NCBI RefSeq assembly: GCF_000425145.1
Contig: NZ_KE384311.1
Coordinates: forward strand, 292,542 to 356,541
Reading direction: 5' to 3'
Source: Pedobacter glucosidilyticus DSM 23534
GTDB lineage: Bacteria; Bacteroidota; Bacteroidia; Sphingobacteriales; Sphingobacteriaceae
DNA length: 64,000 bases
Part shown: positions 1 through 54,629 of the stretch, in pieces
How the letters are laid out: each line of letters opens with the position of its first letter
Position numbering within the stretch: the first letter of the stretch is position 1
Position numbers and translations under genes: made by a program
Notes under the pieces: model-generated
The model's database searches: none
Told to the model about the DNA's origin: nothing
What the model saw: only the letters and a program-made list of their open reading frames with translations

Positions 1-370
1 ATTCACTTTTTTCTTGATAAAAAAGTAAACAAAAAATCAAGGCTTATGAATATTTGTCGTTTCGTCTAAATAAATCCTTATCCACAATCCTGAGTAGTGT
101 GAATGGTTTTACTTGATGAAGGTTTCTACAACACCCGTCGGATTGTTTCCCGATAGTTCTCTATGAAAGTTTTTGCAAAAAATTTATTTGACTTCAATCC
201 AAATCTTCATAGGCCGTCTCTCGTTCTTTGGAAAGGAAAATTTAATTTTCAAAGGAACTTCCTGAATATCCACTTTTTAGATATCTTTTTACTTTATACT
301 CTTTACTTTATACTTTTTACTCATTACTTTAAACCTCATACAGCCTTCCTCGGTCTTCAGACTCCACTTA
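1..370. other. Non-coding region downstream of ddl
   Basis: No credible gene is seen here. The first 40 bases are an AT-rich stretch around TTTCTTGATAAAAAAGTAA that looks like an interspersed intergenic sequence. The right part holds the heptamer tandem repeat listed separately. A plus-strand reading frame at 163-432 runs through this repeat and into the 3' end of ddl in antisense, and its translation has the low-complexity F/L/T/P-rich look of non-coding DNA. Confidence 0.6.
286..334. repeat. Period-7 tandem repeat, seven units
   Basis: Seven heptamers stand head to tail: TTTTTAC, TTTATAC, TCTTTAC, TTTATAC, TTTTTAC, TCATTAC, TTTAAAC. Every unit begins with T and ends in AC. The array lies downstream of ddl, whose 3' end is at 371. 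A shorter array of the same family ends the mutarotase gene at 33467-33494. Confidence 0.8.
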
Positions 371-5380: not shown

Positions 5381-5465
5381 ACCTACCATATACACCACTC
5401 AGATAATTTTAATGTATTGATAAATAAAAAGTTAAGCCAAAAAAGAGAAAAATAACATTTTCTAC

Positions 5466-5496
5466 TTTGGAGATTTGCTTTGAGTTTGTACTTTTG
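5466..5496 (+). promoter_or_regulatory. Promoter of tRNA-Ser(UGA)
   Basis: TTTG at 5466-5469, a 19-base spacer, and TACTTTTG at 5489-5496 match the Bacteroidota consensus TTTG-N19-TAnnTTTG. The mature tRNA begins at 5501, so transcription would start close to its 5' end. Confidence 0.75.
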
Positions 5497-5500
5497 CGGC

Positions 5501-5585
5501 GGAGAGTTGGCAGAGTGGTCGATTGCGGCAGTCTTGAAAACTGTTGACTGTAACAGGTCCGGGGGTTCGAATCCCTCACTCTCCG
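5501..5585 (+). tRNA. tRNA-Ser (anticodon UGA)
   Basis: The 85-base sequence folds as a class II tRNA. The acceptor stem GGAGAGT pairs with ACTCTCC, the anticodon stem GCAGT/ACTGT holds the loop CTTGAAA (anticodon TGA), there is a long variable arm, and the T-loop contains TTCGAAT. The discriminator base is G, as expected for serine. The 3' CCA is not encoded in proper register. Confidence 0.96.
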
Positions 5586-5593
5586 CCCAGTAT

Positions 5594-5630
5594 AAAAAGC
5601 CTTAAAATCTAATGATTTTAAGGCTTTTTT
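5594..5630 (+). terminator. Rho-independent terminator of tRNA-Ser
   Basis: The stem GCCTTAAAATC/GATTTTAAGGC with a 4-base loop is followed by a run of six T. The same stem recurs at 11947-11985. Confidence 0.85.
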
Positions 5631-5889
5631 GTTTAATTAAAACTATCAAAAATTACACTTTTTTAGCTAAAAAAATGGTTGTAAAGCGGTAATCATACAA
5701 GCGCACAATAACCATAAGCAATAAATAGGTTCTCTAGACAATTGAGAGCCTATTTTTTTTGAATTTTAGTTAACTCATTATTAATCAATTATTAAAATAA
5801 GAATAAGGTTTGATAAAAAGAAAATAAGTTTCTAAATTCGAAGCTTATTTACAAACTAAAAATCTATCTACTAATAAATTCATCAAAGC
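5631..5889. other. Intergenic region before the propeller gene
   Basis: No gene is seen. It contains an orphan terminator-like hairpin at 5724-5760 and an AT-rich stretch up to the start codon at 5890. No exact TAnnTTTG box was found close to that start. Confidence 0.5.
5724..5760 (+). terminator. Orphan terminator-like hairpin
   Basis: Arms AATAGGTTCTC (5724-5734) and GAGAGCCTATT (5744-5754) pair with one G:T wobble, and eight T follow. No gene lies between it and the tRNA-Ser terminator about 95 bases upstream, so what it terminates is unclear. A small RNA or leftover of a lost gene is possible. Confidence 0.6.
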
Positions 5890-8800
5890 ATGCAACATCT
5901 TTACCCTCTTCAAAATTTACTTATTGTTAATTTAAAGCGTGTAAAACATTTAACTTGTGTATTCTTTTTTATTTCATTGACATTCCAATCAACAAGAGCA
6001 TTAGCACAAGCCCCAACCATTACGAATTTTACACCAACCACAGGCTCAGTAGGAACATTGGTAAGAATAACAGGCACCAATTTAAGTAACCCAACAGCTA
6101 TCACCATTGGCGGGGTAGCGGCGATCCCCATTAGTAATGATGGAACCACTTTAGTAACCATGGTAATGCCTGGTGCAACAACAGGAGCATTGAGTATAGC
6201 CACATCAGCCGGTACAGGAAATGGAACAGGGAATTTTACAGTAACGCCCACACAAGCACCCAATACCCAGCAAGGCAATAAACTAGTAGGCACAGGGACA
6301 ATTGGTAGTGCTGAACAAGGATTTTCAGTAAGTATCAGCGCAGACGGTAATACCGCTATCGTTGGAGGATTTAGAGATAACAGTAATGTAGGTGCAGCAT
6401 GGGTATATACACGAAGTGGAAGCACTTGGTCCCAACAAGGCAATAAATTAGTAGGTACTGGGGCAGTAGGTGCTGCTCAACAAGGATTTTCAGTAAGCAT
6501 CAGTGCAGATGGTAATACCGCCATAGTTGGGGGACGTAACGATAACAGTAATGTAGGTGCTGCATGGATATATACACGAAGTGGAAGCACTTGGTCCCAA
6601 CAAGGTAGTAAATTGGTAGGTACTGGGGCAGTAGGTGCTGCTCAACAAGGATTTTCAGTAAGCATCAGTGCAGACGGTAATACCGCCATAGTTGGGGGAA
6701 GAAATGATAACAGTAGTGTAGGCGCAGCATGGATATACACCCGAAGTGGAGGGATATGGACTCAACAAGGCAATAAACTAGTAGGCACAGGTGCAAATGG
6801 ACTTGCGCAACAAGGATCTTCAGTAAGCATAAGCGCAGATGGAAATACAGCTATAGTTGGAGGTCCTGCTGATGATTTTTTTATTATAGGTGCAGCATGG
6901 GTTTATACCCGTAATGGAAGCACTTGGACACAACAAGGCAATAAATTAGTAGGTACAGGTGTTTCTGGATCATCGGCTTCACAAGGATCTTCAGTAAGCA
7001 TCAGTGCGGATGGTAATACTGCTATAGTTGGTGGTGATCTAGATGATGAAGGTGTTGGTGCAGCTTGGATATACACTCGTAGTGGAAATTTATGGACCCA
7101 GCAAGGCAATAAATTGGTAGGCACAGGTGCAACTGGAGCTGCTTCACAAGGATCTTCAGTAAGCATCAGTGCTGACGGTAATACTGCCATAGTTGGTGGT
7201 CTAGGTGATGGTAGTGGTGGTGCAGCATGGGTGTATACACGCAGTGGAGGCGTATGGACACAAAAAGGAAATAAGTTGGTAGGTACTGGGGCAGTATTTG
7301 GTGCTCAACAAGGAAATTCAGTAAGCATTAGTGCAGATGGTAATAATGCCATAGTTGGTGGAAATGTTGATAATATTTTTACCGGCGCAGCGTGGATTTA
7401 TAATTATGTTCCACAACCTCCTATTATCACCAATTTCACACCAACAATGGGCTCAGTAGGTACTTTGGTAAGCATAAATGGTACTGATTTAAATAACACA
7501 ACCGCTGTGACTATTGGAGGAGCGTCAGCAATACCCATTAGTAATAATGGAACCACCTTAGTGGCTTTGGTAATGCCCGGCGCTACAACTGGAGGAATCA
7601 GCATAACAACCGATGGCGGAACAGCTAATGGAATAAGCAATTTTACAATTACTCCTACGCAAGCGCCCAATACCCAACAAGGTAATAAACTGGTAGGCAC
7701 AGGTGCAGTCGGATCGGCTGTACAAGGAAATTCAGTAAGCGTTAGCGCAGATGGCAATACTGCCATAGTCGGTGGTTACAATGATAATGGGGCTTTAGGT
7801 GCTGCTTGGATATATACCCGTAACGGGAACATCTGGACACAACAAGGGGGTAAACTAGTTGGTACCGGTGCAACTGGAGTTGCTAGACAAGGGTGGTCAG
7901 TTAGCATCAGTGCAGATGGTAATACTGCTATAGTAGGAGGTTATACAGATAACAGCAGTATAGGTGCTGCTTGGGTATATACCCGTACTGGGAGTACTTG
8001 GACTCAGCAAGGCAATAAATTAGTAAGTTCAGATGCGATTGGAGCTTCGCAACAAGGATATTCTGTTAGCATAAGTGCGGACGGCAACACCGCAATAGTC
8101 GGGGGTATTGGTGATAACAGTAATGCAGGCGCAGCTTGGATATATACACGTAACGGGGGTATCTGGACTCAACAAGGCAATAAACTAGTGGGCACAGGTG
8201 CAACGGGAGCTGCCCAGCAAGGATTTTCTGTCAGCATCAGTTCAGATGGCAATAATGCTATTGTTGGAGGTGTTGCTGATAACAGTAATGCAGGTGCAGT
8301 ATGGATATATACCCGCAATGGAACTACATGGACTCAGCAAGGTAATAAATTAGTGGGTACGGGTTCAATTGGTGCTGCTAGACAAGGAAGATCAGTAAGC
8401 ATCAGTGCAGATGGCAGTACGGCCATAGTTGGTGGCAATGAAGATAATAATTTTACAGGTGCAGCATGGGTATATACCCGAAGTGGAGGAACATGGACAC
8501 AACAAGGCAATAAATTGGTAGGTTCAGGATCAACTGGAGCTGCCCGACAAGGAAGATCAGTTAGCATTAGTGGAGATGGCAATACAGCAATTGTTGGAGG
8601 AGATACAGATGAAAGTAATGCGGGTGCAGCATGGTTGTTTACTCGTAACGGAAGTACTTGGACTCAACTAGGAAATAAACTTTTAGGCACAGGCGCAACA
8701 GGAGCAGCAAGACAAGGATGGTCAGTTAGCATTAGTGCGGACGGTAATACCACCCTAGTAAGCGGTAATAGTGATAATGTAAATAGAGGTGCAGTATGGG

Positions 8801-11679
8801 TTTATAATTATGTTGCACCACCACCAACCATAACAAGCTTTACCCCATTGAGCGCCAAACCTGGCGATATTGTAACTATAACAGGTACAGGTTTTAACAC
8901 TAACACCGCAAGTAATATAGTGTTTTTTGGTGCAACAAAAGCCACTGTAACAGCAGCAACAGCAACCAGTATAACAGTAACTGTCCCAACAGGAGCTACT
9001 TTTGCACCTATTACTGTTCTAAATACAACATCTCAATTAGTTGCTTATAGTATGCAATCCTTTAACCCAATTTATTCCCCAGTAAAAACCGCAATAACGG
9101 CTAATGATTTCATACCTAAAGTAGATCTTGAAACAGGTGTTTCTCCATTATCAGTAGCTATAGGGGATTTAGATGGCGATGGTAAAGCTGATTTGGTGGT
9201 GGCTAACGAAAACTCAAGTACAATTTCCATATTCAGAAATACTAGTACTAATGGAAGTCTAACTCTAGGTTCATTTAGTGGAAAAGTTGATATTGCTACA
9301 GGTTCTAGTCCATATTTTGTAGCAATAGGAGATTTAGATGGTGATGGTAAACCCGATTTAGCTGTGGCTAATCGGTCATCAACTACTGTCTCAATCTTTC
9401 GAAATACGAGTACAATTGGAAGTATAACGGCTGGTTCTTTTGCTGCAAAGGTAGATTTTACAACAGGATCTACCCCAACTTCATTAGCACTTGGAGATTT
9501 GGATGGTGATGGTAGAACAGATATTGGGGTTGCTAATTATTCTTCGAATAGTGTTTCAATATTGCGCAATATTGGTAACTCTGGAAGTATAACAGAAAGT
9601 TCATTTGCTGCAAAAGTAGATTTTACAACATCCGGTTTTCCAAATTCAATAGCTATAGGAGATTTAGATGGCGATGGTAAATCAGACTTAGCTGTTACAA
9701 ATGAATCACCAAGTTCAGTTTCCATATTTCGTAATACTAGTGTTATTGGAAGTATAGACATAGGATCATTTGCAAATGCTTTTGATATTTCGTATGGTGC
9801 TGTTCCAACTTTATTAGCTATTGGTGATTTAGATAGGGATGGTAAATCTGATTTGTTGGTAGCTAATGGTACATCTAGCGTTTCAGTATTCCGTAATACA
9901 AGTAGTAATGGTATAATAGATGCAAATTCATTTGCTGCTAATGTAGATTTTACAACCACAGGTACAGCTACTTCAGTTGCAATAGGGGACTTAGATGGCG
10001 ATAATAAACCTGATTTTGCTGTTGCTAACGCTAATGCTGGCTCAACTAGCGTTTCAGTATTTCGTAATACTAGCACTAGCGGTAGTATAACTTCAGGCTC
10101 ATTTGCACCTAAAATAGATTTCACAACAGCATTTAGTCCCCGTTCTGTAGCAATAGGGGATTTAGACGGTGATAGTAAACCCGATTTAGTAACTGCTAAT
10201 ATTGGATTAAGTAATATTTCCATAATCCGTAATGCGTCAAACACCCCTGATTTATCAGCTTTAACCCTAAGCTCAGGTACATTATCTCCAGCTTTTGTAG
10301 CTAGTACGACAGCTTATACAGCAAGCGTAAGTAATTTAATAACAAGTATTACAGTCACCCCAACAGTAGCAGATGCTAATGCAACAGTTACTGTAAATGG
10401 AATATCAGTAACCAGCGGAAACGCATCAGGAGCGATAACTTTAAATGTAGGTAGCAATACTATAACGACGTTAGTAACAGCGCAAAACGGAACTACAAAA
10501 ATCTATACAGTAATTATTACTAGGGCAGTTAACAATGCTCCAACAGACATAGCTTTAACTCCAACAAGCATTAATGAAAATGTGCCTGCAAACTCTATAG
10601 TAGGTTCTTTGACAAGTACCGACCCGGACGTGGGTAACACTTTTACTTATACTTTAGTAGCAGGAACTGGAGGTGACAACAATGCAAGTTTCAGTGTCAG
10701 TGGAGACGAATTAAGAATTAATAACAGTCCAAACTTTGAAACTACGCCAAGTTTTTCGGTTAGGATAAGAACTACAGACCAAGGAGGTTTAACCAGAGAA
10801 CAAGCATTTACCATTACGGTGAATAATGTGAATGAATCTCCAACGATAGCAAATGCCATCCCGAATCAAAACGCAACGGAAGACCAGTTATTCAACTTCA
10901 CATTTGCAGCAAATACTTTTGCAGATGTAGATGCAGGAACAACTTTAACTTATACTTCACAGTTAAATGGAGGAGGAGCATTACCAACGTGGTTGAGTTT
11001 TGATGGGGCAACAAGAACATTCTCTGGCACACCATTAAATACGAATATTGGTACAATTATTATAGATGTAATTGCAAACGATGGAAGTGGAGGAACAATT
11101 ACTGCTATTTTTAATATTGTAGTTGGAGCAACATTACCAGTAACTTTAAACCAATACTCAGCTAAATTACAAACAAACGGAACAGTATTGTTAACGTGGG
11201 ATACCTTTGCAGAACAAAGCAATGATTATTTCGAAATATCAAAATCAACAGACGGAGAAAACTTTGTATTGTTAAGTACAATAAAAGGAAATGAAACAAC
11301 CACTCGACGCAGCTTATATAACTATACAGACAGAACACCAAAAAGTGGAGATAATTATTACAAATTGGTACAGGTAGATTTAGATGGAGCTAGAGAAGAG
11401 TTAGGGATAAGAAGTGCGAAAGTAGCATTAGCAAATGATTCAAAAGTAACAATCTATCCAAATCCAAGTACAGATTTAGTGAATATAGTATTTGAGGCAG
11501 GAAAGTTTATCAGCATAGAACTAATAGACTTAAACGGTAGATTAATACAGAAAAAGGAAGTATTATCAAAAGCCTTGGAGACCACATTAGAAGTAAAAGA
11601 TTTACCATCATCAAGCTATTTAATCAAATTAGTAGGCAATCAAGAAACAATAACCAGAATATTGATTGTGAAAAAGTAA
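5890..11679 (+). CDS. Giant T9SS surface protein with three seven-bladed propellers
   Basis: A 1929-residue exported protein. The order is: N-terminal signal region ending near ALAQ at about 40; IPT/TIG domain about 42-125; seven blades of about 55 residues ([15 protein letters not shown] core) about 126-507; a second TIG about 508-590; seven more such blades about 591-975; a third TIG about 976-1060; seven FG-GAP/VCBS-type repeats with DLDGDGK calcium-loop motifs about 1073-1448; a cadherin-like sandwich about 1450-1545; a cadherin repeat about 1550-1650; a putative Ig/dystroglycan-type domain about 1650-1750; and a T9SS sorting domain with YPNPSTD near 1855. It is probably a surface adhesin or binding protein. 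No catalytic site is seen. The gene stands alone between tRNA-Ser and a decayed antitoxin. Its ligand is unknown. Confidence 0.9.
6271..7410 (+). repeat. First coding repeat array, seven units of about 165 bp
   Basis: Seven near-identical units encode [10 protein letters not shown]...[15 protein letters not shown]...[10 protein letters not shown]. The second and third units are almost the same at DNA level, which points to recent duplication or gene conversion. Seven units fit one closed propeller. Confidence 0.85.
7675..8814 (+). repeat. Second coding repeat array, seven units of about 165 bp
   Basis: Another seven units of the same family as the array at 6271-7410, after a second TIG domain. 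The last unit of each array ends in W-[IV]-YNYV in place of YTRSG, which marks the closing blade. Confidence 0.85.
9106..10235 (+). repeat. Seven FG-GAP/VCBS-type coding repeats
   Basis: Seven units of about 160 bp carry the core [10 protein letters not shown]-x-D-L, a typical calcium-binding blade loop. Unit five has DRDG, and units six and seven have DGDN and DGDS, so three of the seven loops deviate. Confidence 0.85.
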
Positions 11680-11707
11680 AATTAATATAGAATTTAAAAA
11701 TAGGTAA

Positions 11708-11880
11708 GTCCTCGAGAATGAGTTAAGCAACATATTAGGTAAACGTTCAAGAAAGTCTGAAATTTTATCGGGGAAAAGAAAGTTAAGCTTGTCGATGATT
11801 CGTAAACTAACTAAAATATTAAATAGACAGTATCCCATAAAGTGTGTATTCATTACCTCTTTGTATTATTGTCTAAGATT
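11708..11880 (+). pseudogene. Remnant of a HigA-like HTH antitoxin
   Basis: The plus frame from 11708 reads, without an ATG, a peptide containing SEILSGKRKLSLSMIRKL. This closely resembles the helix-turn-helix recognition region of HigA-type antitoxins (COG5499-like), in which a V-S-E-I-L-x-G-K-R-x-L-s block is followed by IRKL. An in-frame stop at 11705 and a lost C-terminus (the frame changes character after about 11826 and stops at 11878) show it is broken. No HigB toxin gene is visible. The family assignment rests on memory of the motif. Confidence 0.6.
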
Positions 11881-11916
11881 TTTTTGATAAAAGCTAATAT
11901 ACCCTCTAAATATTCT

Positions 11917-12000
11917 ATTAGATTCCCTCCTTCCCTGCCCAAGCATAAAAGAGCCTTAAAATCCTGTGATTTTAAGGCTCTTTTTATTTTATTATTAAAA
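11917..12000 (+). repeat. Degenerate copy of tRNA-Ser 3' end plus terminator (att-like)
   Basis: This stretch aligns in register with 5565-5642: the T-arm and acceptor part of tRNA-Ser (about 19 of 26 bases by eye), then GCCCA, then the terminator hairpin (23 of 26 bases), then an AT-rich end. Nothing resembling the 5' half of the tRNA precedes it. That pattern is expected of an attachment-site duplicate rather than a full decayed tRNA gene. Confidence 0.45.
11947..11985 (+). terminator. Rho-independent terminator hairpin
   Basis: The stem AGAGCCTTAAAATC/GATTTTAAGGCTCT with a 4-base loop is followed by T-rich sequence. A-rich sequence on the other side means it could also work on the minus strand for the MmcQ-like gene at 12119. 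Confidence 0.75.
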
Positions 12001-12118
12001 ATTAAAGTCTCTTTTCCAATTAAGGTTTACAATACTTCCAGATATTTAATTTCAGCTACAAGTCTGTCTGTTAACCATTCATATATCATAGAGTTTAATT
12101 TACATAATTTTATAGTGT

Positions 12119-12466
12119 CTATTCCTTTTCTATGTTTACCAAGGCAACTAATTTAGATGGTGCAACCTGACAGTAAGCTATACCAAGTATATCTTTTAAA
12201 ACTTCTTCTTGTAGTTGACTGCTTTGCACAAGTGTCCATCCATGGGTACCAAATTTATTAGGAACAGGATAAATAACATGAGGAAATAATTTACTAAAAA
12301 CATCTTGATCAATTAAATTAAATTTTAAGCAACAACGGTTAACCTGATGATTAAAAGTGGCAAATATCTTTCCCTTAACCTTGAAAGCTGTTTTATCATG
12401 ATGTGGGGCTTCTTTTACCTCGGGTAGTGCAAGAGCTAGATTCTTAAAAACTTCAAAATTCACCAT
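12119..12466 (-). CDS. MmcQ/YjbR family DNA-binding-like protein
   Basis: A 115-residue protein of the MmcQ/YjbR family, whose fold resembles the CyaY/double-wing DNA-binding fold. Family hallmarks visible are the N-terminal LALPEVKEAPHHDKTAFKVKGKIFA block at about 11-35 and the HGWTLV segment near 74-79. There is no signal peptide. The biochemical role of the family is not well settled. It stands alone, followed by the hairpin at 11947-11985. The upstream gene is 113 bases away. Confidence 0.88.
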   Translation of the reverse strand: MVNFEVFKNLALALPEVKEAPHHDKTAFKVKGKIFATFNHQVNRCCLKFNLIDQDVFSKLFPHVIYPVPNKFGTHGWTLVQSSQLQEEVLKDILGIAYCQVAPSKLVALVNIEKE

Positions 12467-12579
12467 TTACTTACATTTCTAGAATAATATTATAATTTTT
12501 TTGGCACATCAATACCTCACCAAATTAAAAAATAATAGCTCTAAAATTTCAAACTGCGATGATAAAAATAGTATTCAAT

Positions 12580-13245
12580 TTAGAGAGAAGACCTCTGTTC
12601 ATTTAAAATTCCGTTTAAAAAGGCGTATTTAACAAGGGCTGCTGTATTTTTTACTTTGATTTTTTGAATAAGGTTTTGCCTATAACCCTCTATTGTTCTT
12701 TTGCTGATGAAAAGCTTATTAGAAATTTCTTGATTGGTAAAACCATCTGCAATAAGATGTAAGATTTCGATTTCTCTGGAAGAAAAATTATGTTTTAAGT
12801 TTTTGTCTTTCTCTTGCTTAGATAAACGTGTGAGCTTATCTAATAAACTTAATGAAAACTCTGAGCAGATGTACCTTTGACCGCTATGAACATGTTTTAT
12901 AGCAAATTTTAATTCTAATGGCTCTATATTTTTGAATAAATAGGCTGATATACCTTCTTTAAAAAATGCTATTATAAATTCTTCATTATCTATAACAGAA
13001 AGCATAATGATAGAAAGATGAGGATATTGTTGCTTAATTAATTTTATTAAACTCAACCCTTCAATATCAAGTTTATTGATGTTTACTAATAATATATCAG
13101 CTATACACCCGGTTTTAAGCAGGTTAAGCAATTCATTTCCACATGCTGTATCTGCTACAATTTTTAAATCAGCATCTTTTTCCAATAAATTTTTTAAAGT
13201 ATTCCTAACAGTATGGTGATTTTCTGCAAGTATAATATTTATCAT
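12580..13245 (-). CDS. LuxR/NarL-type response regulator lacking the phosphoacceptor Asp
   Basis: A 221-residue protein with an N-terminal receiver-like domain (about 1-120) and a C-terminal LuxR helix-turn-helix (about 150-215, with SSREIEILHLIADGFTNQEI). In the receiver the acidic pair that normally reads DD is E8-N9, and the phosphoacceptor position in DILLVNIN is N55 instead of aspartate. The conserved lysine (AYLFK) is kept. It therefore probably does not work by ordinary phosphotransfer and may be constitutive or ligand-controlled. No histidine kinase lies nearby. It sits 176 bases beyond the last gene of the PL8-SusCD locus, on the same strand, so a role in controlling that locus is possible but only inferred. 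Confidence 0.88.
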   Translation of the reverse strand: MINIILAENHHTVRNTLKNLLEKDADLKIVADTACGNELLNLLKTGCIADILLVNINKLDIEGLSLIKLIKQQYPHLSIIMLSVIDNEEFIIAFFKEGISAYLFKNIEPLELKFAIKHVHSGQRYICSEFSLSLLDKLTRLSKQEKDKNLKHNFSSREIEILHLIADGFTNQEISNKLFISKRTIEGYRQNLIQKIKVKNTAALVKYAFLNGILNEQRSSL

Positions 13246-13421: not shown

Positions 13422-14066
13422 CTATTCAAAAATCAGCTCGCCAAAATAGGCCGGTAAATGAAAATTAGGTTCATGATTTTCTACTTTATTCCAACAAAGA
13501 AAATGAGGATGCTTTAAATCATCTCCACATTTATAGAAATTTGCTTTGCAGCATTTCCCTTTTAAAGTTTTTAATTGATGATGAGTAAAAACGGTTAGCG
13601 GTAACATTATGGTAAGCTCCCAACTGTACGGAAGTTCGCTATTTTGATTTTGCCTAAAGCTTTTCTGAATTTTTATTTTACGAAGATCAGCAGCTAGTAT
13701 AAATCTTCTATCATGTTTATTTGTACCAAACTGGGCTAAACAAGCTCTGTTACTGTTAAATTCGAAATTATAATAACCACTATCGTCAAAAGCTAAAAAA
13801 AACTCCACACAACTATCTTCATAAACAGGCTCGTTTGGATTTATATAACGAGCTAAAAAGTCATTCTCTTGTACTTCAAATCTTAGTGCAAGCATATCGG
13901 CAGTATACAAAACAGAAACATCACATGTGCCTTTATATGCTACGTTTGGCCAAAAAGTCTCATTTATTTTGTGCTTTTTTTGTTGATTTAAAACTGATGA
14001 AACCAAGCTTATATCGCTTAAAAAATTGATATGCTGAACTTCTGAAATGTTAATCTTTTTAGACAT
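13422..14066 (-). CDS. CBM9-like carbohydrate-binding protein
   Basis: A 214-residue protein resembling the carbohydrate-binding family 9-like domain: WPNVAYKG near 40, LRFEVQENDF near 67, the EDSCVEFFLAFDD strand near 86-98 and a C-terminal NFHLPAYFGELIF. Stand-alone proteins of this type are common in Bacteroidota carbohydrate loci. No signal peptide is visible, so a cytoplasmic location is suggested, which is odd for a glycan-binding module. Its ATG overlaps the stop of the GH20 gene by one base (TAATG), indicating translational coupling and a place at the end of the PL8-SusCD operon. Confidence 0.75.
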   Translation of the reverse strand: MSKKINISEVQHINFLSDISLVSSVLNQQKKHKINETFWPNVAYKGTCDVSVLYTADMLALRFEVQENDFLARYINPNEPVYEDSCVEFFLAFDDSGYYNFEFNSNRACLAQFGTNKHDRRFILAADLRKIKIQKSFRQNQNSELPYSWELTIMLPLTVFTHHQLKTLKGKCCKANFYKCGDDLKHPHFLCWNKVENHEPNFHLPAYFGELIFE

Positions 14067-51592: not shown

Positions 51593-51615
51593 TTGAAAAT
51601 TTTTGCAAAGAGGAC

Positions 51616-51645
51616 TTGCAAACTCTTTTTTTCTGCCTATATTTG
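51616..51645 (+). promoter_or_regulatory. Promoter of the tRNA-Gly/tRNA-Leu cluster
   Basis: TTG at 51616-51618, a 19-base spacer, and TATATTTG at 51638-51645 match the Bacteroidota promoter consensus. It lies 46 bases before the first tRNA-Gly. Confidence 0.8.
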
Positions 51646-51691
51646 CACTCCGTTCAAACGGAAAACGTTCTTTAATAAATAAATAAATTAT

Positions 51692-51764
51692 GCGAAAGTA
51701 GCTCAGTTGGTAGAGCACAACCTTGCCAAGGTTGGGGTCGCGAGTTCGAATCTCGTCTTTCGCT
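51692..51764 (+). tRNA. tRNA-Gly (anticodon GCC), copy 1
   Basis: A 73-base cloverleaf. The acceptor stem is GCGAAAG/CTTTCGC, the anticodon stem CAACC/GGTTG holds the loop TTGCCAA (GCC), and the T-loop is TTCGAAT. Identical to the copy at 51946. Confidence 0.97.
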
Positions 51765-51799
51765 CTAAGGGATAAAAATCCTGATTTGTGGAAACACAA

Positions 51800-51885
51800 G
51801 CTGAAGTGGTGGAACTGGTAGACACGCAGGACTTAAAATCCTGTTCGCCCTAAAGCGAGTGCGGGTTCGATTCCCGCCTTCAGTA
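51800..51885 (+). tRNA. tRNA-Leu (anticodon UAA), copy 1
   Basis: An 86-base class II tRNA. The acceptor stem GCTGAAG/CTTCAGT has a G:U first pair, the anticodon stem CAGGA/TCCTG holds the loop CTTAAAA (TAA), a long variable arm follows, and the discriminator is A. Identical to the copy at 52070. Confidence 0.97.
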
Positions 51886-51945
51886 CAAAAAATCAATCAA
51901 AAGGCTTTGATTGTTGTTCTTTAGCAAGTAAAGAATATAAATTAT

Positions 51946-52018
51946 GCGAAAGTAGCTCAGTTGGTAGAGCACAACCTTGCCAAGGTTGGGGTCGCGAGTT
52001 CGAATCTCGTCTTTCGCT
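51946..52018 (+). tRNA. tRNA-Gly (anticodon GCC), copy 2
   Basis: Same 73-base sequence as copy 1, 254 bases downstream. The preceding bases ATAAATTAT are also shared with copy 1, so the duplicated unit includes a little 5' flank. Confidence 0.97.
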
Positions 52019-52022
52019 CCAT

Positions 52023-52049
52023 AAAACCTTCCCTATCAGGAAGGTTTTT
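52023..52049 (+). terminator. Terminator-like hairpin between tRNA-Gly and tRNA-Leu copy 2
   Basis: AAAACCTTCC/GGAAGGTTTT, a 10-bp stem with a 6-base loop, ends in a T-run of five. It sits in the middle of the cluster, which would separate the last tRNA-Leu from the upstream promoter unless read-through occurs. Confidence 0.65.
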
Positions 52050-52069
52050 ATTTTACAGCTTCTAAAGCT

Positions 52070-52155
52070 GCTGAAGTGGTGGAACTGGTAGACACGCAGG
52101 ACTTAAAATCCTGTTCGCCCTAAAGCGAGTGCGGGTTCGATTCCCGCCTTCAGTA
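52070..52155 (+). tRNA. tRNA-Leu (anticodon UAA), copy 2
   Basis: Same 86-base sequence as copy 1. It lies after an internal terminator-like hairpin, and no separate TAnnTTTG box was seen in the 20 bases between them. Confidence 0.97.
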
Positions 52156-52157
52156 CG

Positions 52158-52188
52158 AAAGCCTGATATGAAAATATCGGGCTTTTTT
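52158..52188 (+). terminator. Terminator of the tRNA cluster
   Basis: AAAGCCTGATAT/ATATCGGGCTTT with a GAAA loop and one G:T wobble is followed by a T-run. Confidence 0.8.
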
Positions 52189-52357
52189 GTTTTTATAATC
52201 ATATCAAGCAATCAGAACTTAAAGAAATCAAGAATCTTTGAGGCATGAACAGTTTATAAAGACCTTACAACTATTCTAAAGGCTTAAATCTAAAGAACTA
52301 TTAAATGAATCCTAAGCAATTGTAATACAATCTTTAAACATTTTATATTTAATGGTA

Positions 52358-52390
52358 AACAAAAAAAGCAGCCTTTATAGCTGCTTTTAT
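52358..52390 (-). terminator. Terminator of tRNA-Ser(GCU)
   Basis: A perfect 9-bp stem AAAAGCAGC/GCTGCTTTT with a 7-base loop. On the minus strand it is followed by a run of seven T and sits 10 bases after the tRNA-Ser 3' end. Confidence 0.8.
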
Positions 52391-52400
52391 CACTTTTTTG

Positions 52401-52487
52401 CGGAGAGAGCGGGATTCGAACCCGCGGTACCGTTTCCAGTACGACAGTTTAGCAAACTGTTCCTTTCGGCCTCTCAGGCACCTCTCC
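52401..52487 (-). tRNA. tRNA-Ser (anticodon GCU)
   Basis: An 87-base class II tRNA on the minus strand. The acceptor stem is GGAGAGG/TCTCTCC with a final G:U, the anticodon loop is TTGCTAA (GCT), a long variable arm follows, the T-loop is TTCGAAT, and the discriminator is G. Confidence 0.96.
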
Positions 52488-52503
52488 TTCCCTATTGGGT
52501 GTG

Positions 52504-52533
52504 CAAATATAACAATACGAATATATCTACAAA
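52504..52533 (-). promoter_or_regulatory. Promoter of tRNA-Ser(GCU)
   Basis: On the minus strand TTTG (52530-52533), an 18-base spacer and TATATTTG (52504-52511) match the consensus. It ends 16 bases before the tRNA. Confidence 0.8.
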
Positions 52534-52547
52534 AAGAAATTTTAATT

Positions 52548-54629
52548 CTATTGTCGGTAATCTATCCTTACATGGTAGATACCCATCAGCATCGTTTTGA
52601 AAATCAGCTTGATAGTCTCAATTTCTTTCAATGTAATATTACTATCATTTAATTGATTTTGCTCTAGTTTATAATCAATAATACGCTCAACCAGGTTATT
52701 GATGCTCTCTGCATCGGGTTCTTTTAAGCTTCTAGAGGCTGCTTCGACAGAATCTGCCAGCATTAATACCGCAGTTTCTTTGCTAAAAGGAATTGGTCCA
52801 GGATAACGGAATGTATTTTCATCAACAATCTTTTCTGGGAAATTCTTTAAAAACGACTGGTAAAAATAATCTACTCTGGTATTCCCATGATGCGTTCTGA
52901 TGAAATCTATAATCACTTCTGGCAGGTTATGCCTACGAGCAAGTTCAACACCATTTACCACATGCCTGATAATGATTTGAGCACTTTCTTCATAAGGTAA
53001 TTTATCATGCGGATTTAAACCTTTATTCTGGTTCTCGATAAAAAATTGTGGATTTTCCATCTTTCCAATATCATGATAAAGTGCTCCGGCTCTCACTAGC
53101 AACGCATTCCCTCCTATTTTAAAAATGGCCGATTCTGCTAAATTAGCCACCTGTAAAGAGTGCTGAAAGGTGCCTGGTACTTTATAAGCCAACTCTCTTA
53201 ATAAAGTAGAATTGGTATTGGTTAACTCCATTAAAGTAATATCTGAGGTGATGCCAAACATCTTCTCGAACAAATAAATTAAAGGATAAGCCAATAAGGA
53301 AAGTAATACACTAAAAATAAATGGCAGAAACTTTAACCATTCTACAGATGCCAAAGCTCCTTCTCTGATTAAGGAGATTCCTAAATAAGAAATAAAATAG
53401 GTAAGTAATATCAATAAAGCACTAATTAGAAACTGCTCTCTACGTACCAGATTTTTAATACTATAAATAGAAACCATACCTGCCGAAATTTGCAAGAAGG
53501 CAAACTCGAAACTATTTGGCACAAAAAAGCTTGCTATCAATACCACTAATAAATGGATATTCATAGCTAAACGGGTATCAAATAATATCCTGATGATGAT
53601 AGGAACTATACAATAGGGTATGTAATACAAACTTGGCAATTTCATTCTGATAGACCAGGATAAGAATAACAACATCCCAGTTACAACCAATAAGATTAAA
53701 GAGATTTGTCTGTTATCCTGAAAAATATCTTTTCTAAACAGGTAAAGAAAAACCATCAGTAAAGACACTATGAGTGCAACTAGTAAAAACTGACCTAAAA
53801 GAACTAAATTTCTATCACCTGTTACTCTTGCATTTTCCTCATAAGCTAAACGTAAAGATTCTAGTTTCTGGTAAGCCTCATCATTAATGGTAGAACCATT
53901 TTCAATAATTACCTCACCTTTTTGCACCATTCCTCTTGTGGAGGATACATTTTCTATAGCTTGCTTTTGTAAGCTCTCTGTAAAGCGCTCATCTAATAAA
54001 ATATTTGGCGTAATCCTATCTTTCAGAATATTTACTAGAATATCAGTTCTTACTTTTTTATTCTCAACCACACGCTCGCTAGCCAAAGAAAAGGCAGAAG
54101 TTGTAGTTAATAAAGTTGCTGTACTTACTTCTGTTTTCACATTGTTTTTCAACAACATGATTAAGTAGTTAGCATTATCTTTTTCTTTCTGATAGCTCTT
54201 ATTTAAGCCTATAATACCTTTTTGGTAAATATTTTTAAGCAACTCAAAACCAAACTCAAAAGTTCTTTCTTTGTAATCATCATCGGGTAATCCTGCCGAA
54301 CGCCATTTAGCTTCAAAATCTGCCTGATACTCATTCAACTGTACTTCCAAAACTTTATCATCCAAACGGTAAACAGGCAAAATAGACTTTAAGATATTAT
54401 CCTTATCAGATTTTATCTCTTGTGTAGTTTTTCTGATAGCAAAATTATAGGGAGATATTAAGTCGTCATGCATCCAAACCACACCTTTTTCAAATTCATA
54501 TTTGAATCTAGCTTGTTTAGGTAAAATTGCAGTAATAAACAGGATGCTAAGCACCATTAAAACATATTTAAGGGCATAGGCATATTTCCTGTAAATAATC
54601 TTGTGCGAATCTCTGTTGATAGTAGCCAC
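52548..54629 (-). CDS. 7TM-HD phosphohydrolase (PgpH-like, cyclic di-AMP phosphodiesterase family)
   Basis: A 693-residue inner-membrane protein. A first membrane helix (about 18-38) is followed by an extracytoplasmic 7TMR-HDED region (about 45-285), a block of seven membrane helices (about 290-470) and a C-terminal cytoplasmic HD domain (about 485-680). The HD motif is H517-D518 in ALYHDIGKM, with RHVVNGVELARRH and IRTHHG following. Proteins of this build, such as PgpH, hydrolyse cyclic di-AMP. No diadenylate cyclase is in the window. The tRNA-Ser(GCU) promoter lies just 3' of the gene. Confidence 0.93.
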   Translation of the reverse strand: MATINRDSHKIIYRKYAYALKYVLMVLSILFITAILPKQARFKYEFEKGVVWMHDDLISPYNFAIRKTTQEIKSDKDNILKSILPVYRLDDKVLEVQLNEYQADFEAKWRSAGLPDDDYKERTFEFGFELLKNIYQKGIIGLNKSYQKEKDNANYLIMLLKNNVKTEVSTATLLTTTSAFSLASERVVENKKVRTDILVNILKDRITPNILLDERFTESLQKQAIENVSSTRGMVQKGEVIIENGSTINDEAYQKLESLRLAYEENARVTGDRNLVLLGQFLLVALIVSLLMVFLYLFRKDIFQDNRQISLILLVVTGMLLFLSWSIRMKLPSLYYIPYCIVPIIIRILFDTRLAMNIHLLVVLIASFFVPNSFEFAFLQISAGMVSIYSIKNLVRREQFLISALLILLTYFISYLGISLIREGALASVEWLKFLPFIFSVLLSLLAYPLIYLFEKMFGITSDITLMELTNTNSTLLRELAYKVPGTFQHSLQVANLAESAIFKIGGNALLVRAGALYHDIGKMENPQFFIENQNKGLNPHDKLPYEESAQIIIRHVVNGVELARRHNLPEVIIDFIRTHHGNTRVDYFYQSFLKNFPEKIVDENTFRYPGPIPFSKETAVLMLADSVEAASRSLKEPDAESINNLVERIIDYKLEQNQLNDSNITLKEIETIKLIFKTMLMGIYHVRIDYRQ

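Follow-up and report, generated by a model that had tools for sequence, protein, structure and literature searches.

Probable scar of an integrative element at a tRNA-Ser(UGA) gene of Pedobacter glucosidilyticus DSM 23534

Locus and comparison set

The stretch of DNA analysed here, referred to as the window, comprises 64,000 bases of Pedobacter glucosidilyticus DSM 23534 (G000; bases 292542-356541 of contig C1, in a genome of 4,021,020 bases and 62 contigs). An intact tRNA-Ser(UGA) gene with its terminator lies near the left end of the window. It is followed by a very large gene for a surface protein, by a short helix-turn-helix remnant and, at 11917-11987, by a repeat of the 3' end and terminator of the same tRNA gene. 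A YjbR/MmcQ-family gene and the gene for a LuxR-type response regulator come next. The initial annotation had read the segment between the tRNA and its degenerate repeat as a possible islet, with accessory genes as cargo. In the present analysis the segment is not classed as a genomic island, and only its right-hand edge is regarded as the probable scar of one.

The comparison set consisted of 41 genomes including G000, 18 of them in the genus. G010 was taken as Pedobacter glucosidilyticus UBA7667, a metagenome-assembled genome, G012 as Pedobacter puniceum HX-22-1 and G008 as Pedobacter cryophilus AR-3-17. G013 is a congener of G000, and G023 belongs to another genus of the same family. G000 has two tRNA-Ser(UGA) genes, which point in the same direction and are 21.6 kb apart: one at C1:276422, upstream of the window, and one at window position 5500 (C1:298041). 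For these loci, LA denotes the left flank with the BrkB and cupin genes, LB the left flank of the other tRNA-Ser(UGA) gene and R1 a right neighbour.

Repeat of the tRNA 3' end and terminator

The degenerate repeat proposed in the initial annotation was upheld. With blastn, 11918-11994 aligned to the tRNA 3' end and terminator with 81% identity over 77 columns (E = 2.8e-10, searched against the whole genome). In the T-arm/acceptor portion 18 of 25 positions agree without gaps, and the 24 bases of the hairpin stem are all identical in the two copies. A pattern search allowing up to 3 mismatches located this hairpin in only three places in G000, namely at 11952-11979 and behind both tRNA-Ser(UGA) genes. 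A generic terminator was ruled out by this confinement.

The alignment was also better than chance when the hairpin was removed. The 32 nt 5' of each hairpin align with a score of 8, the shuffle mean being -4.6; out of 5000 shuffles of each type, 2 (dinucleotide) and 7 (simple) reached this score. It was also reached at 17 of 127,548 other positions of the window (both strands, best score 16). The hairpin-free score is convincing because the hairpin fixes its position, and as a free match it is unremarkable. As a control, 2000 random 78-base segments were searched for an equal forward-strand match within 10 kb, leaving out 5400-12130 (which holds the surface gene) and 51600-52560 (a tRNA cluster); none had such a match, and the best reached 50.9 bits compared to 61.7 bits for the repeat. 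With no exclusions, 49 of 1000 segments were at or above the score; among the 40 listed, one was the finding, and the surface-gene repeats or the tandem tRNA cluster accounted for the other 39. Three other terminator-like segments were compared, and none of them reached the score of the repeat.

Only the 3' half of the tRNA is repeated, as originally described. No counterpart of the 5' part could be detected in the 64 bases that precede the copy (3097 of 5000 shuffles were as good); these bases are no closer to the remainder of the tRNA than shuffled sequence, which makes a decayed complete tRNA gene unlikely. The unbroken match to the tRNA begins at TCCCTC both in the window copy and in a repeat of the tRNA end in G013, and weaker similarity continues to 11918 in the window. 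Together, the alignments confirm the repeat as a real, truncated relic of tRNA-Ser(UGA).

Flanks of the copy

In genomic islands that are targeted to tRNA 3' ends by tyrosine recombinases, the left attachment site (attL) holds the intact tRNA and the right attachment site (attR) a repeated tRNA end. The sequences on either side of the copy were compared with tRNA-Ser loci of G000 and relatives (Table 1). The inner edge agrees with the right end of an insert in G013 at 19 of 29 positions, which was reached by 3 of 10,000 shuffles, and when the stretch was lengthened to 35 and 45 positions, 7 and 2 of 10,000 shuffles were as good. The blast match to G013 covered 11894-11992, and another blast match, over 11918-12020, took in the outer flank. 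The outer flank resembles the sequence behind copy 1 in G000 (3 of 500 shuffles as good) and behind copy A in G010 (0 of 500). As judged by alignment, the layout of the flanks around the copy is that of an attR.

Table 1. Features of the tRNA-Ser(UGA) locus in window coordinates
Feature	Position	Strand	Basis and remarks
tRNA-Ser(UGA), intact	5500..5589	+	ARAGORN
Terminator hairpin, specific in G000 to the tRNA-Ser(UGA) genes and the scar	5594..5630 (stem 5598-5625)	+	Pattern search of the genome
Right flank of the tRNA	5631..5760	+	Common to G010 and in part to G008, directly behind tRNA-Ser in both; 0 of 500 shuffles as good for each
1929-aa surface protein	5890..11679	+	Pfam: FG-GAP and TIG repeats, Ig-like domains, cadherin-like and He_PIG domains, type IX secretion C-terminal sorting domain
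HigA-like helix-turn-helix remnant, no start codon	11711..11887	+	Sequence; sub-threshold Pfam match (HTH_3, E = 0.043)
Inner edge of the scar	11894..11922	+	Similar to the inner right end of the insert in G013; its five final bases fall within the weak tRNA similarity
Degenerate repeat of the T-arm/acceptor 3' end of tRNA-Ser; putative attR core	11917..11945	+	Shuffle-tested alignments
Second copy of the tRNA-Ser terminator	11946..11987 (stem 11952-11979)	+	Pattern search
Outer flank (about 33 bases)	11988..12020	+	Like the flank after the other tRNA-Ser copy
YjbR/MmcQ-family gene	12119..12466	-	Pfam; not found in G010, located elsewhere in G012 and G013
LuxR-type response regulator	12580..13245	-	Pfam; last gene of the block common to G010, not found here in G012 and G013

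tRNA-Ser(UGA) as an integration site in relatives

A protein of 391 aa with a Phage_integrase domain (PF00589, E = 3e-10) is encoded next to tRNA-Ser(UGA) in G023, its open reading frame (ORF) starting at 111814, 63 bp after the end of the tRNA at 111750. The genes that follow appear phage-like on inspection by eye. About 53 kb away, 28 bases of the tRNA end are repeated without a mismatch, and this copy may have been made by the integrase. The prophage-like element of G023 and the window have the tRNA gene and a repeated 3' end in common, whereas the integrase, the undecayed repeat, the phage-like genes and the size of the G023 element are without a match in the window.

A second case was found in G013, where 20.9 kb separate tRNA-Ser from a copy of its 3' end with terminator (G013:C1:1084540-1105413). 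The seven ORF products scanned in this insert were an ISL3 transposase, an ECF sigma factor, FecR, SusC, SusD, a SIS-domain protein and part of an alpha-N-acetylglucosaminidase. The ISL3 transposase adjoins the tRNA. By eye, the alpha-N-acetylglucosaminidase gene is seemingly split over two frames. This SusC/SusD-type insert of 21 kb agrees with the window in the tRNA used, the left flank, a similar inner right end and the lack of a recognised integrase. It differs from the window in its cargo, a carbohydrate locus with the transposase beside the tRNA, and in its tRNA-end copy, which is nearly undecayed. Genus loci compared by eye, unaligned, showed that the right neighbour of tRNA-Ser varies between genomes. 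The G023 integrase with its copy and the G013 insert support the view that tRNA-Ser(UGA) is a used integration site in related bacteria.

Among the weak matches to the tRNA end, three were inspected, and none is a scar. The match on G007:C63 reads as the 3' half of a serine-type tRNA cut at the contig end, the one on G020:C101 is tRNA-Ser(GGA) and the one on G019:C4 is tRNA-Ser(GCT).

Fifty loci around BrkB-type genes, many of them with short flanks, were also surveyed, and 12 tRNA-Ser(UGA) genes were found in 10 of them. The remaining 40 loci show no tRNA-Ser(UGA) in the DNA covered. Extra exact copies of the tRNA end (at least 13 bases) were sought in the 10 tRNA-bearing loci; such a copy was present in two, and each proved to be a second, complete tRNA-Ser gene. 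None of the 50 loci yielded a relative of the G023 integrase, the window and the G000-G013 stretches not having been searched with this integrase. In L149, L120, L121 and L145, which include the distant Shiella aurantiaca, tRNA-Ser(UGA) lies directly behind the BrkB-type gene. As this order is present in distant bacteria, the left-hand arrangement of BrkB and tRNA is probably old.

Exchange of flanks and block boundaries

G000 has LA and the tRNA in common with G010, G012 and G013, at 92-94% identity. The pairing of flanks is not constant: G000 has LB-tRNA-R1 and LA-tRNA-surface gene, and G010 has LA-tRNA-R1 (then X) and LB-tRNA-surface gene. G012 agrees with G000 for LB-tRNA-R1, with an identity of about 85% in R1 and 97% in the adjoining 4.4 kb of LB. 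As left and right flanks are paired differently in G000 and G010, an exchange of right-hand neighbours between the two tRNA-Ser loci has taken place in this group. The terminator types of the two loci are likewise mixed between species. The twin genes point the same way at a distance of 21.6 kb, and the segment between them could therefore be excised.

The lineage-specific block reaches beyond the copy, to about 13424. Synteny of G012 and G013 with the window resumes at that position and not at 12000, and the right neighbour from 13424 stands in another context in these two genomes. G010 is without about 11763-12510, which holds the copy and the YjbR/MmcQ gene, and has instead some 300 other bases with an XRE-like frame (by eye). 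It is common with the window again in the LuxR gene and the sequence beyond, as far as compared. The gene order at the locus was not common to distant relatives, in line with the initial proposal of an islet.

The initial annotation had also looked to relatives in which tRNA-Ser is joined directly to the MmcQ gene, and this expectation was not borne out. MmcQ was found in 11 of the 41 genomes including G000, and in none of the other 10 was it within 30 kb of a listed tRNA-Ser match; G010 yielded no MmcQ gene. The distance from MmcQ to the nearest tRNA-Ser(UGA) is about 87 kb in G012 and 70 kb in G013, where the gene follows a tRNA-Arg within approximately 0.6 and 1.5 kb, respectively. These positions rule out MmcQ as the native right neighbour of the tRNA. 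Two candidates for an empty site failed as well: G010 has the surface locus, and LA-tRNA of G012 is followed by another neighbour, RA', whose counterpart in G000 is located at C1:50422-58638. The G012 neighbours RB0 and Z have their counterparts in G000 on contigs C10 and C7.

Origin of the copy

The explanation favoured, with moderate confidence, is that 11894-12020 represents the decayed attR of an integrative element targeted to the tRNA-Ser(UGA) 3' end. The element would have been joined by an integrase to the last 15-25 bases or so of the tRNA, so that the intact gene stood on the left and a second tRNA end, followed by the original terminator and flank, on the right. Later, the integrase would have been lost together with most of the element. 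The tRNA part of the scar would then have drifted and the hairpin been retained, perhaps because it may now serve as terminator of the convergent YjbR gene at 12119. The present content between tRNA and scar is a variable surface-protein locus rather than an intact element. Recombination between the two tRNA-Ser(UGA) genes has since taken place, and the scar is therefore perhaps outside its original context. The comparisons show that the repeat is homologous and cut off near the T-arm, that its flanks have similar sequences elsewhere, that a family member has an integrase at this tRNA and that flanks were exchanged between relatives; the integrase origin of the scar and this order of events are inferred.

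Like tRNA-targeted islands, the window has an intact tRNA on one side and, on the other, a truncated 3'-end copy with a native-type terminator and flank, and an integrase gene adjoins the same tRNA in a family member. Unlike them, the window has no recognised integrase and no intact element, the relatives searched provided no exact empty site, and the repeat has decayed heavily. As searches for an integrase and for an empty site yielded neither, the segment as such is not called an island. Scars of this type are already known, and the feature by itself is ordinary; the site at which it lies is unusually rearranged.

Several observations weigh against an attR. No integrase was recognised between the copies, where five proteins were scanned with Pfam and smaller ORFs inspected by eye, in agreement with the initial annotation; nor was one recognised among the seven scanned ORFs of the G013 insert. 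No exact empty site was found in the relatives compared, and G010 carries the surface-protein locus without the scar. When 11870-12130 was searched in the 18 genus genomes, no further scar was detected, and the matches outside G000, G010, G012 and G013 were to the hairpin only (G015 and G016). The inner similarity is short: its last 20 positions alone agree at 10 of 20, with 555 of 10,000 shuffles as good. The outer flank is unlike those behind copies A and B of G012, copy B of G013 and the repeat in G013; in these comparisons 431 to 471 of 500 shuffles did equally well. The p-values for the flanks are uncorrected and come from short stretches picked after the alignment had been seen. Finally, the sequence from 5631 onward is also present to the right of tRNA-Ser in G008 and looks like an old flank, so that, contrary to the usual pattern, the left insertion edge does not coincide with the end of the tRNA.

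The islet of the initial annotation therefore stands in part. The truncated tRNA relic, the use of the tRNA as an integration site and the lineage-restricted start of the surface gene speak for it. However, the segment is not one clean insert, as seen from the scarless G010 locus, the flank from 5631 in G008 and the resumption of synteny at 13424.

Ordinary recombination between the tRNA-Ser(UGA) loci, by unequal crossing-over or partial gene conversion and with no integrase, is a possible if somewhat doubtful source of the copy. The same process would have swapped the flanks, and it would fit the opposite pairing of LA and LB with R1 and the surface gene in G000 and G010, the mixed terminator types and the lack of a recognised integrase in the window segment. 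It accounts less well for a copy that starts near the T-arm, given that the G013 repeat has the same start of the unbroken match and a similar inner edge, and an integrase is present at this tRNA in G023. Very unlikely is the in-place decay of a third tRNA-Ser gene of which the 3' end and terminator survive. A well-kept terminator with a flank of tRNA-Ser type behind it would be expected of such a gene, but its 5' part is undetectable upstream at the level of the shuffles, and the sequence there is similar to the non-tRNA inner end in G013. A chance likeness of two similar terminators with a C-rich stretch, to which the general similarity of palindromic terminators, the G003 and G017 hairpins that lie within 3 mismatches and away from the best tRNA-Ser matches of those genomes, and the free window positions equalling the hairpin-free score might point, is extremely improbable, being contradicted by the confinement of the G000 hairpin to tRNA-Ser genes and this site, by the anchored tRNA part and by the whole score, which none of the 2000 control segments from outside the repetitive stretches equalled.

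The probable scar, the insert and the integrase-bearing element, each in a different genome, point to tRNA-Ser(UGA) as a site of repeated insertion and rearrangement in this Pedobacter group and its family. The exchange between the tRNA twins is the more interesting part, more so than the scar itself. An extension of this idea, considered unlikely, is that the twins form an exchange junction with two ports, in which islets enter either gene by site-specific integration and homologous recombination swaps the right-hand cargo, for surface proteins or sugar uptake, between two chromosomal addresses. Further genomes could reveal the lifetime of such scars and how duplicate tRNA genes drive rearrangement.

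Neighbouring genes and other observations

Of the cargo named in the initial annotation, the very large surface-protein gene is present as described, but the HigA-like antitoxin has only a weak Pfam match. It is a start-less fragment of 177 bases and not a complete HigA antitoxin, and no toxin-like ORF was seen beside it by eye.

The surface-protein locus swaps its front between near relatives. The last 283 aa of the surface protein are 93% identical to the tail of a different protein of 1188 aa in G010, and G000 and G010 are 92-97% identical in nearby aligned stretches. In G010 (C32:40135-44193, L041) the broken start of the window gene, about 100 codons, is followed by the 1188-aa gene with EPTP/DUF6242-like repeats; the difference in front between the two genomes was recognised from this broken start and the other gene. 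The region 5640-6330, at the start of the surface gene, was matched in 7 of 41 genomes including G000. A strong match was obtained only in G010; the match in G017 had 1e-27, and those in the other four 4.6e-6 or weaker. This distribution supports a lineage-restricted start of the gene. The GC content of the surface gene is 40.5%, compared to 35.4% for the window, which agrees with a foreign or a repeat-driven composition and proves neither.

An Rfam scan gave, besides the tRNA, two matches under the gathering score, which were taken as chance. The passages of PMC4642753 that were consulted contain nothing touching this tRNA-Ser(UGA) locus. At 51692-52156, tRNA-Gly and tRNA-Leu are present as a tandem duplicated pair in which some stretches are 100% identical. 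A dispersed repeat of approximately 300 bases occupies window positions 18-329, near the synteny breakpoint X/LA, and is 80-86% identical to other copies in G000, G012 and G013.

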